Assembly (NCBI RefSeq): GCF_031432215.1
Contig: NZ_JAVKGN010000001.1
Span: forward strand, 1,355,421-1,419,420
DNA length: 64,000 bases
From: Halodesulfurarchaeum sp. HSR-GB
GTDB taxonomy: Archaea > Halobacteriota > Halobacteria > Halobacteriales > Halobacteriaceae
Direction: 5' to 3'
Position 1 is the stretch's first letter; every line of letters starts with the position of its first letter. The notes beneath the pieces were generated by a model, which saw nothing but the letters and a program-made list of their open reading frames with translations, searched no databases and was not told the DNA's origin. A program made the translations under genes and the position numbers. This document shows positions 4,762 through 43,435 of this stretch, piece by piece.

Positions 4762-5975
4762 ATGCGACGAACAGATCTCTTCGTTCCAACCTCGAAGGAG
4801 GCCGAATCGAGCGCCCAGGTCCGGAGCGCCGAACTCGCGCTCCGGAGTGGCCTCGTCGATCACCCCGGTGCGGGCATCTTCAGTTACTCCCCGACCGGCG
4901 AGCGTGTGCGCAAGAACATCTCCGATATCATCCGGGAGAAAATGAACGAGATCGGGGCTCAGGAGGTCTCCCTCCCCGGGCTCCAGTACGCCGATATCTG
5001 GCGGAAGAGCGGCCGGTGGGAGGAATTCGAGGGCGAGATGTTCACCTTCCAGAATCGGGAGGGCAAGGACATGTGCCTGGCGACCACCCACGAGGAACCC
5101 ATGGCCGGTCTCGTCCGCGAACGGGTCCGATCCCCGAAGAACATGCCGCTGGTCCTCTACCAGATCGGCGAGAAGTACCGGGACGACCACCCGCGAAACG
5201 GGCTGCTTCGGGCCAAGCAGTTCACTATGAAAGACGCCTACTCCTTCACCACGGACGAGGCGGCCCTGGACGAGATCTATCAGGAGATGCGGGCGGCCTA
5301 CATCGAGATCTTCGACGAACTGGGTGTGGAGTACGCCATCGTGGACGCCGACCCGAGTTCGATGGGCGGCACCGCCTCCGAGGAGTTCCAGGCCCCCGCC
5401 GAAGTCGGCTCCGACGAGATGGCCTACTGCCCGGCCCCGGACTGTCACTTCGGGACGCTGGATTTCGATGTCGATGCGTGCCCCGAGTGTGGAACCGACC
5501 TCGTCGAGACCAACTCGATCGAACTGGGCCACATCTTCAAGCTCGGGACCCGGTACAGCGACCCGATGGACCTGACCTACGACACCGAGTCCGGCCAGGA
5601 AGAGGTCATCATGGGCTCCTACGGGATCGGGGTCAGCCGGCTGATTCCCGCCCTCATCGAACAGCGAAACGACGAGAACGGCATCATCTGGCCTGAATCG
5701 GTCGCGCCGTTCTCCCTGAGTGTGGTTCCGCTCAACGAGGATCCCGAAATCATCGAGATGGCCGAGGAGATCCACGACCGTGTGGGCTCCGAGGAGGTCC
5801 TGCTCTTCGATGGCGACACCGCGATCGGCGAGAAGTTCGCCGAATCAGATTTGATCGGGGTCCCCGCGAAGGTGATCCTGGGGAACACCTTCCTCGAAGA
5901 CGGCGAACTCGAAGTCGAGTTCCGTGACGGCGGCCGCGAGTACTACGAACCGGCGGACTTCTTCGAAACCTACGC

Positions 5976-5979
<4 letters not shown>
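4762..5979 (+). CDS. proS: prolyl-tRNA synthetase, bacterial type, no editing insert
   Basis: Charges tRNA-Pro with proline. The 405-residue sequence follows bacterial-type ProRS: N-terminal MRRTDLFVPTSKEAES, class II motif 2 (RDDHPRNGLLRAKQFTMKDA) and motif 3 (MGSYGIGVSRLIPALIEQ). The roughly 180-residue INS editing domain of typical bacterial enzymes is absent; in its place is a short four-cysteine stretch (CPAPDC, then CPEC) that could bind zinc. Most haloarchaea use the archaeal/eukaryal type, so this looks acquired. The ATG at 4762 matches the family start. The TGA stop is made by the right end of the IS inserted at 5976; without it the ending would be GCG TAA, coding for the same last residue. 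Confidence 0.9.
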
Positions 5980-7503
<1,524 letters not shown>

Positions 7504-31504: not shown

Positions 31505-31651
31505 AGAGGAAGACGGTCCTGCTCGCCTCGCTACGCTCGACTGTGCGGGCTGCGCCTTCCAGGGCTTCAAATCCCGTCGTCGCCGCTGAACACCTCGCTT
31601 CCAACCGCGAGCGACACGAGCGTCGCTCGCGGGTTGGGTACCGAGGAGAAG

Positions 31652-31723
31652 TGGACTCGCCGGGATTTGAACCCGGGGCCTCTCCCATGCCAAGGGAGTG
31701 ATCTACCACTGATCTACGAGCCC
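31652..31723 (-). tRNA. tRNA-Ala (anticodon GGC)
   Basis: 72 nt on the minus strand. Acceptor GGGCTCG pairs with CGAGTCC and contains the G3:U70 wobble that identifies tRNA-Ala. D arm GATC...GATC, anticodon stem CTCCC/GGGAG with loop TTGGCAT (GGC), T arm CCGGG-TTCAAAT-CCCGG, discriminator A. CCA is not encoded and there is no intron. Two partial copies of its 3' end lie downstream. Confidence 0.93.
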
Positions 31724-41423: not shown

Positions 41424-41891
41424 TCACTCGAAGATGTCTGCGGGGTCGGCCCCGAGGACGGTCACGAGGTCCGCTGGATCCACGGCGGCGACCGTCTCTG
41501 GGGTTCCAGCCCCGCCCCAGATCGTCTCGAACTGCTGGAGCGCAGGGTCGATGAGCGTCCGATCGATTTCGTGACCCACTGGTGGGACGCCACCAATCGG
41601 CCAGCCACTGACTTCTTCTACCGTCTCCGGGTCGGCCAGTTCGACCACTTCGGCATCGAGTACCTCGGCCAGGGCGGATTCCGCAACCTCGTGGTGGCCG
41701 GCGGTATAGACGAGAACCGGCTCGCCGTCCCCGAGAAAGACGATGCTCTTGACGATGGCCTCGATCGAGCAGTCGAGAGCGGCTGCGGCGTCGGCGGCAC
41801 TGTGCGTGCCGGCCGGTAGCTCGCGCACTTCAGGGGTCGTTCCCAGCGTTTCGCGGGCGCGCCGACGGAATCGTGCAGTGGGTTCGTCCAT
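41424..41891 (-). CDS. YbaK/ProX-type aminoacyl-tRNA deacylase
   Basis: 155 residues of the YbaK/EbsC family, stand-alone relatives of the ProRS editing domain that remove Cys or Ala mischarged on tRNA-Pro. Seen: IVKSIVFLGDGEPVLVYTAG with the conserved Lys, and WPIGGVPPVGH. The ProRS in this window lacks its editing insert, so this protein is a candidate trans-editor. The ATG at 41891 begins the family-like MDEPTARFRRRA. Confidence 0.85.
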   Translation of the reverse strand: MDEPTARFRRRARETLGTTPEVRELPAGTHSAADAAAALDCSIEAIVKSIVFLGDGEPVLVYTAGHHEVAESALAEVLDAEVVELADPETVEEVSGWPIGGVPPVGHEIDRTLIDPALQQFETIWGGAGTPETVAAVDPADLVTVLGADPADIFE

Positions 41892-41935
41892 GTCTGTGGA
41901 GGATTGCTCGGTGCAGGAATAGGTTTCGAGGAGGT

Positions 41936-43435
41936 TCAGCCCCACACGACCGGGAGCCAGAGTGAACTTGCGACCGTGAGAAAGGCGATCCCGACGAGGT
42001 TGAGCCAGAAGCCGACCCGCGCCATGTCCGGAATCGTGAGATAGCCGCTTCCGAAGACAATAGCGTTCGGTGGGGTCGCTACTGGGAGCATGAATGCGAA
42101 GGAGGCGGCCACTGAGACCGTCGCCATGAGTGCGAGCGGGGAGACCAGCAGTGCAGCACCGAGACCGGCCATGATCGGGATGAAAAGCGAGGCAGTAGCA
42201 CTGTTCGACGCGATTTCCGAAAGGAAGACGACGAGCGTCGCAATCGCGAGGAGGACCCAGACGAACTCCACGCCCCGGAGGCCGACGAAGTGGCCGGCGA
42301 TCCAGGCTGAGAGCCCACTCACCTGGAACGCGTTCGCGATCGAGAACCCGGCTCCGAAAAGGACCAACACGCCCCAGGGAACTCGCGTCGTGTCCTGCCA
42401 CCGAAGGAGAAACTCGCCGCGACGGAGATCGACCGGGACCAAAAAGACCAGTATGCCGGCGACGACGGCGATTACCGTGTCGGTGAGCCCTGGGACGAGT
42501 GGCTCCAGGACGAACGGCCGGAGCAACCATCCGAGGACGAGAAACAGGAAGACTGCCACGACTCGCCGTTCGCCGGTGCCCATCGGGCCAAGGGCGTGCA
42601 GTTCGGATCGGATCTGTTCGTGTCCCGTCGGGAGAACCGTCTCTTCGGGTGGGACCAGGCGAAGGAGCAGGACCCAGGTGACGAGCAGAAAACTAACCGC
42701 CAGCGGGAGTCCGAACTGCATCCACTCGACGAACCCGATCTGGATTCCGAGTTGCGCGCGGGCGACACCAGCTAGAATGGCATTGGGCGGGGTCCCGATG
42801 AGGGTCGCGACCCCGCCGATCGAGGCCGCATAGGCGATCCCGAGCAACAGGGCCGTCCCGAAGTTCGACTGCTCGACCGAGCCGGCGTCCAGAACGTCAG
42901 CCGTCCGATCCGCTAACGGGTTTGCTTGTGTTGGCTCTCGAAGGGCCTGTCGCTGGGCTACCACGCCCATCCCGATGGGGACCATCATCATCGCGGTGGC
43001 GGTGTTCGAAAGCCACATCGAGAGGAAGGCGGTGATGAGCATGAATCCCAGAATCAGCCGTCGGGAGTCGGTCCCAAAACGGACGAGCAATTTCAGGGCG
43101 ATTCGGCGATGGAGCCCCCAGCGTTCGATCGCGAGCGCGACCAGAAACCCGCCCAGAAAGAGAAACACGATCGGGTTGGCGTACGGAGCTGTTGCCCCCT
43201 CGGCGCTTGTGACGCCACAAACCGGAAAGAGGACGATGGGAAGCAGGCTGGTGACTGGAATCGGTGCCGCCTCCGTCACCCACCACGTTGCGATCCAGAG
43301 TGTGCTCGCCAGGACCGCGTTTGCTGCGGGCTGGAGGCCAGCCGGGGTGACAAAAAGGTGAGTCAGGACGAACAGGGCCGGGCCAAGTCCCAGGCCGATC
43401 TGCTGCCGACGGTTGTACGAGGTGGCTTCGCTCAT
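41936..43435 (-). CDS. SLC13/DASS-family anion:sodium symporter
   Basis: 499 residues with about eleven transmembrane helices. Both substrate/sodium hairpin signatures of the DASS family are present: SNTATAMMMVPIG and, in the second repeat, SNSATASLFIPIM, as well as a second proline-rich IGTPPNAI. Members import dicarboxylates, citrate or sulfate with Na+. Which anion is carried is not evident. Monocistronic. Confidence 0.88.
   Translation of the reverse strand: MSEATSYNRRQQIGLGLGPALFVLTHLFVTPAGLQPAANAVLASTLWIATWWVTEAAPIPVTSLLPIVLFPVCGVTSAEGATAPYANPIVFLFLGGFLVALAIERWGLHRRIALKLLVRFGTDSRRLILGFMLITAFLSMWLSNTATAMMMVPIGMGVVAQRQALREPTQANPLADRTADVLDAGSVEQSNFGTALLLGIAYAASIGGVATLIGTPPNAILAGVARAQLGIQIGFVEWMQFGLPLAVSFLLVTWVLLLRLVPPEETVLPTGHEQIRSELHALGPMGTGERRVVAVFLFLVLGWLLRPFVLEPLVPGLTDTVIAVVAGILVFLVPVDLRRGEFLLRWQDTTRVPWGVLVLFGAGFSIANAFQVSGLSAWIAGHFVGLRGVEFVWVLLAIATLVVFLSEIASNSATASLFIPIMAGLGAALLVSPLALMATVSVAASFAFMLPVATPPNAIVFGSGYLTIPDMARVGFWLNLVGIAFLTVASSLWLPVVWG

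Follow-up and report, generated by a model that had tools for sequence, protein, structure and literature searches.

Prolyl-tRNA synthetases (ProRSs) occur as a bacterial P-type and an archaeal/eukaryal E-type, and each is regarded as strictly specific to the tRNAPro of its own type (PMC12152171). Full-length P-type enzymes, such as that of E. faecalis (2j3l; TIGR00409, NF006625), carry the INS editing domain, whereas alpha-proteobacterial P-type enzymes, such as that of Rhodopseudomonas palustris (2i4l/2i4n; NF008979), do not. Departures from a simple match of enzyme and lineage have been described: ~22% of bacteria have an E-type ProRS, which works on P-type tRNAPro (a figure cited in PMC12152171), and Streptomyces and others carry ProRSx with tRNAProX, a second bacterial-type ProRS beside the canonical one. 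Here we describe a P-type ProRS without INS, or mini-ProRS, encoded in a 64,000-nucleotide stretch of the genome of Halodesulfurarchaeum sp. HSR-GB (the window), where the swap of types is reversed and the P-type enzyme is found with an archaeal tRNA. No such enzyme is reported for archaea or haloarchaea in the open-access literature as far as its available text goes, including PMC1920508, PMC8821087 and PMC9258230. The reading that we favour, with a probability of roughly 0.87, is that an acquired mini-ProRS, fitted to archaeal tRNAPro, became the sole housekeeping ProRS of Halodesulfurarchaeum and that the archaeal proS was lost. It draws on what can be read from sequence, namely the type of the enzyme, its lack of INS, the missing archaeal proS, the archaeal tRNAPro, the altered loop, the strong purifying selection and the single clade of its relatives.

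A bacterial-type ProRS gene in a haloarchaeon

The features of the window are collected in Table 1. The encoded enzyme passed the profile for bacterial-type ProRS (TIGR00409, proS_fam_II; 407.2 bits, cut-off 306.7) and failed those for the archaeal type (TIGR00408; 105.3 bits, cut-off 437) and for the alpha-type enzyme without INS (NF008979; 379.9 bits, cut-off 550), while a Pfam scan returned a class II core and an anticodon domain and nothing else. Its best solved relatives by sequence, full-length bacterial ProRSs, aligned as two stretches around the absent INS, and the INS columns of the alignment are gapped in the 405-residue protein. An AlphaFold2 model built from 16 haloarchaeal sequences (mean pLDDT 84.1, pTM 0.85; residues 1-19 poor) was nearest to the R. 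palustris enzyme (2i4n, TM 0.85), a bacterial-type ProRS of ~440 residues, followed by other P-type and full-length bacterial ProRSs, with archaeal ProRSs ranking below the bacterial-type ones. These results bear out two claims of an earlier, sequence-only reading of this DNA, that the motifs are bacterial and that INS is missing, a lack shared with 34% of bacteria, which are likewise without a functional INS (PMC3973320). The same ORF is open in a sister genome at 99% identity with a Ka/Ks of 0.024, and is therefore not a chance reading frame.

Table 1. Positions within the window of the features discussed in the text
Feature	Position	Strand	Basis or remark
mini-ProRS, bacterial-type (P-type) prolyl-tRNA synthetase without INS, 405 aa	4762..5979	+	ORF (ATG at 4762, stop ends at 5979), profile scores, AlphaFold2 model
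codon for Thr109, T-x-E loop	5086..5088	+	Thr in bacteria and window, Ser in accessory copies
motif 2 loop RDDHPRNG (residues 140-147)	5179..5202	+	one residue below bacterial RDE-x-RPR-x-G; His at first Arg of RPR
four-cysteine segment C223, C228, C240, C243	5428..5490	+	two INS-flanking cysteine pairs, short linker between
TnpB-like protein, IS200/IS605 family (OrfB_IS605, Cas12f1-like TNB)	6024..7370	-	convergent neighbour
YbaK/INS-like (PF04073) deacylase candidate	41424..41891	-	PF04073 match; only one in genome

Compared with described systems, the window enzyme stands close to the alpha-proteobacterial ProRSs, with which it shares the P-type fold, the lack of INS, a match in a single piece and a Ser in the MGxYGIG strand where most bacteria have Cys. 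The two alpha-proteobacterial rows of our alignment differ from it in a longer insert without cysteines, in a retained RPR loop and in the tRNAPro of their hosts. Full-length P-type enzymes have the same motifs and anticodon domain and, in some cases, the same cysteine pairs, but the window enzyme departs from them in having no INS, an altered RPR loop, Asp for Glu142 and an archaeal tRNAPro as partner. E-type ProRSs share with it the lack of INS and, presumably, G1:C72 A73 tRNAPro as substrate, but are of the other type and possess a C-terminal zinc domain that is absent here.

The sequence-only reading had taken the four-cysteine segment as a replacement for INS. The cysteines are present, but their arrangement argues against a replacement: in 14 of 78 bacterial ProRSs, all INS-bearing, one cysteine pair lies directly before INS and one directly after it, and in the haloarchaeal minis INS has been cut out between the pairs. 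Exactly 2+2 cysteines stand in 32 of the 35 readable haloarchaeal rows, the sister genome included, and the other three have one cysteine more or one fewer. Because the pairs flank INS in bacteria and INS was removed between them in the haloarchaeal enzymes, the segment is, as judged from the alignment, a remnant of the INS base, and it probably forms a metal-binding knuckle.

tRNAPro partners and the motif 2 loop

The pair ordinarily read by bacterial-type ProRS is C1:G72. None of the three tRNAPro of the window genome (TGG, CGG and GGG) has it, all three being G1:C72 with A73. A search with RF00005 found 44 tRNAs in this genome, and two of the three tRNAPro were recovered only by a pattern search. 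The TGG isoacceptor is 97% identical to that of a relative with archaeal ProRS only (G092), and G1:C72 A73 is likewise found in the tRNAPro of relatives with and without a mini-ProRS (13 genomes, 30 tRNAs, with incomplete recovery of isoacceptors). Since these nucleotides are common to the window genome and both kinds of relatives, the tRNAPro have not been rewired. At 31651-31723 the window encodes a tRNA-Ala with an ordinary G3:U70. As a side observation, the 170 kb contig C2 of the window genome carries, at 41897-42056 (L136), an adjacent tRNA-Gln(TTG) and odd-looking tRNA-Thr(TGT), which come on top of the chromosomal copies and may be spares carried by an extrachromosomal element.

Bacterial ProRS requires G72 and A73 in its tRNA, and within the RPR loop the first Arg (R144 in E. 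coli) makes a contribution of >1000-fold (PMC12152171). In Aeropyrum, G1-C72 is an identity pair (PMC9976931). The loop of the window enzyme is unlike that of the bacterial rows, with HPR and one residue deleted where bacteria have RPR (75/78) or RPK (3/78). At the position of Glu142, which is Glu in 78 of 78 bacteria, Asp is found in the window enzyme and in all 34 readable rows of its haloarchaeal relatives that coexist with an archaeal ProRS (the accessory copies, see below). The loops of these relatives are all one residue shorter than the bacterial one and read H-x-R in 31 of 34 and R-x-R in the other three. We infer that the loop changes would let the window enzyme accept G1:C72 tRNAPro, and it presumably charges all three isoacceptors. 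The loop is no marker of use as the sole ProRS, because Arg occupies the first RPR position in 3/34 accessory loops and the shared deletion is older than the takeover. This mismatch of types, a bacterial-type ProRS with archaeal tRNAPro, did not figure in the sequence-only reading and is more interesting than the editing that it emphasised.

Haloarchaeal relatives and their rates of evolution

Mini-ProRSs (E<1e-70) were found in 36 of 391 haloarchaea, comprising two Halodesulfurarchaeum and 34 others that span six families (7, 6, 10, 8, 2 and 1 genomes). All 34 accessory carriers possess an archaeal ProRS as well, and their mini-ProRSs are 46-55% identical to the window enzyme. A tree of 58 rows, rooted for drawing only, placed all 37 haloarchaeal mini-ProRSs (these 36 and one from a Salinarchaeum MAG) on one branch with support of 100/100, and the window genus split from the other 35 as their sister with 100/99, although the tree tool flagged possible long branches meeting. 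The horizontal acquisition proposed in the sequence-only reading is thus supported for the haloarchaeal clade as a whole. That the window enzyme descends directly from the accessory copies found in its family was rejected (AU p 0.016); a clade shared with the alpha-proteobacterial minis was absent from the tree, yet was not rejected (AU p 0.20). In a sample of the phylum, 6 of 148 genomes matched a P-type mini-ProRS, all six in the family of the window (the number of genomes outside the class is not listed).

Spread by plasmids and an origin from phage were both considered and set aside: among the matches listed from 141 plasmid records there was no full-length haloarchaeal one, and the phage search gave no specific match. 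In Haladaptatus halobius, stretches matching parts of the mini-ProRS (residues 1-234 and 327-399) were seen on chromosome 2 and plasmid unnamed6 (L039, L212), and these fragments on two replicons look like a decaying accessory copy.

The window gene lies among genes for a SOUL protein, a short-chain dehydrogenase and the TnpB-like protein, the last of which converges on it 45 bases downstream; no equivalent was called beside the gene of the sister genome. A gene of the same TnpB-like family lies ~5 kb from the mini-ProRS of another genome (G009). A conserved operon partner or gene cluster was rejected, as no gene family was common across groups beyond close relatives in the window and 20 other neighbourhoods (19 of the 34 accessory carriers and the sister genome, with genes called by a simple codon score). 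No tRNA lay within 1.5 kb of 25 of 29 mini-ProRS loci, and the remaining four have a tRNA-His. By eye, the accessory gene adjoins an EF-Tu-like GTPase gene of the GTPBP type in G112, G244 and G077 (L191, L192, L200) and lies between HisRS-like and TruA-like genes in G355 (L193).

A single residue cleanly distinguishes the window enzyme from its accessory relatives: at position 109, in the proline-binding T-x-E loop, it has Thr, like 78 of 78 bacterial ProRSs and both alpha-proteobacterial rows, whereas each of the 35 accessory copies has Ser. At T4, S29, T108, Q153, F235 and S252 it is the window enzyme that deviates and the accessory copies that match bacteria. Of these, T108 replaces a conserved Pro and Q153 a conserved Glu, departures that might reflect altered catalysis. 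Rates of change, calculated as Ka/Ks by the Nei-Gojobori method with our own script, also differ. The window gene compared with that of its sister genome (Ks 0.24) falls within the range of archaeal proS (0.016-0.094) and below that of the accessory genes (0.115-0.774). The latter gave 0.127, 0.774 (Ks only 0.03), 0.221, 0.115, 0.125 and 0.115 in six pairs; in four of these genome pairs archaeal proS gave 0.037, 0.048, 0.094 and 0.016, against 0.127, 0.115, 0.125 and 0.115 for the mini copy there. By this comparison, the mini-ProRS evolves like a housekeeping ProRS when it is the only one and more quickly when an archaeal ProRS accompanies it.

A wider proposal, which we put forward tentatively and at somewhat less than even odds, is that the haloarchaeal mini-ProRSs are a distinct P-type subclass rebuilt for G1:C72, of which an early branch became the sole ProRS in Halodesulfurarchaeum and the Ser109 branch spread as a second enzyme and changed its job. 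Resistance to inhibitors of archaeal-type ProRS would be one option for such a job, since halofuginone is far weaker on P-type ProRS (PMC12152171), and the handling of proline analogues would be another.

ProRS complement and editing in Halodesulfurarchaeum

An archaeal-type proS (E<=1e-60) was present in 386 of 391 haloarchaea. Two of the five genomes without it are Halodesulfurarchaeum, namely the window genome (2,247,336 bases in 3 contigs, 99.96% complete) and its sister (G006; 2,085,946 bases in one contig), the only other well-assembled member of the genus. The other three are drafts, G331 (94% complete), G339 (88%) and G389 (82%), in which neither archaeal ProRS nor mini-ProRS was found, most likely owing to draft gaps. 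No TIGR00408 match above the cut-off was obtained in any of the three genomes of the genus, the third of which (G515, 72% complete) shows neither enzyme, so that the swap cannot be confirmed there. Searches of the window genome with the mini-ProRS protein and with TIGR00408 found no second ProRS, and an archaeal-type proS elsewhere, named by the sequence-only reading as evidence against itself, did not appear. Apart from the mini-ProRS, all matches were far below the cut-off: a ThrRS, identified from its sequence, and two more class II loci that are probably GlyRS and SerRS. The window enzyme is the only ProRS found in its genome.

The surroundings of the missing gene agree in both species. 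In two other genera of the family (G092 and G220), proS adjoins the aCPSF1 gene (named by eye). The window and sister genomes keep aCPSF1 and its neighbours on the other side, assembled and adjacent, and proS is absent; a tblastn search for a remnant near aCPSF1 gave chance matches only in these two genomes (best E 2.4).

That the mini-ProRS has another job, be it ProRSx-like mistranslation or the activation of proline for other use, while the charging falls to an archaeal ProRS that is greatly diverged or escaped the searches, would fit the 34 relatives in which the family coexists with archaeal ProRS and can therefore be accessory, and ProRSx is an example of an accessory enzyme with a new job. 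We consider this improbable, however, given the weakness of the remaining TIGR00408 matches and the loss of proS from its usual place by aCPSF1, together with the retained Thr109 and slow evolution of the window enzyme. A ProRSx acting with an odd tRNA was specifically rejected: unlike ProRSx, the window enzyme stands alone in its genome, and no tRNAPro with a non-proline anticodon occurs among the 44 tRNAs and two extra tRNAPro there (other carriers were partly covered).

Slightly less probable still, and in our view very unlikely, is that the mini-ProRS and the YbaK-type protein of the window are a co-acquired split system of charging and editing. This extends the suggestion of the sequence-only reading that a YbaK-type deacylase serves as a linked separate editor. 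INS is indeed absent and a PF04073 protein present, and YbaK clears Cys-tRNAPro independently of the 1:72 pair (PMC3973320). The ORF and its PF04073 match are sound, but the protein misses the cut-off of the YbaK model TIGR00011 (50.9 bits against 153.25), and its gene lies ~35 kb off. One PF04073 match was found in each of 7 genomes scanned, and 37 of 59 haloarchaea encode a YbaK-like protein, with no relation to the mini-ProRS (present in 7 of 9 carriers and in 30 of 50 non-carriers; Fisher p 0.46). As its distribution is independent of the mini-ProRS, the YbaK-like protein is not a partner of that enzyme, although it may act as a general deacylase. Nor does the missing INS open a new gap in fidelity, as had been supposed: the haloarchaeal archaeal-type ProRSs inspected by sequence have no INS insert, so the swap took no in-cis editing from the lineage.

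Contamination or an assembly gap that hid an archaeal proS is the least probable explanation, with hardly any weight, for although the three other genomes without the gene are drafts, the same pattern recurs in two species, one of them with a single-contig genome, the genes flanking the place of proS are assembled and adjacent in both, and the window genome is nearly complete.

Under the preferred reading of a takeover by an acquired enzyme, a bacterial P-type ProRS would have entered the haloarchaea and lost INS from between its two cysteine pairs. It would then have been refitted to archaeal tRNAPro through the loss of one residue and a change of the first RPR Arg to His, accepting G1:C72 instead of C1:G72. 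Most carrier lineages would have retained it as a second ProRS; in Halodesulfurarchaeum it would have taken over, with loss of the archaeal proS. General deacylases, for example the YbaK-like protein, may clear Cys- and Ala-tRNAPro, as the archaeal enzyme would already have required.

ProRS (COG0442) serves as an archaeal marker gene (PMC9258230), and such practice is affected here, the ProRS of Halodesulfurarchaeum not being the archaeal gene. A P-type enzyme that serves archaeal tRNAPro in nature would provide a ready-made test case for rewriting the acceptor-stem code, with the 34 accessory relatives as intermediates for comparison.
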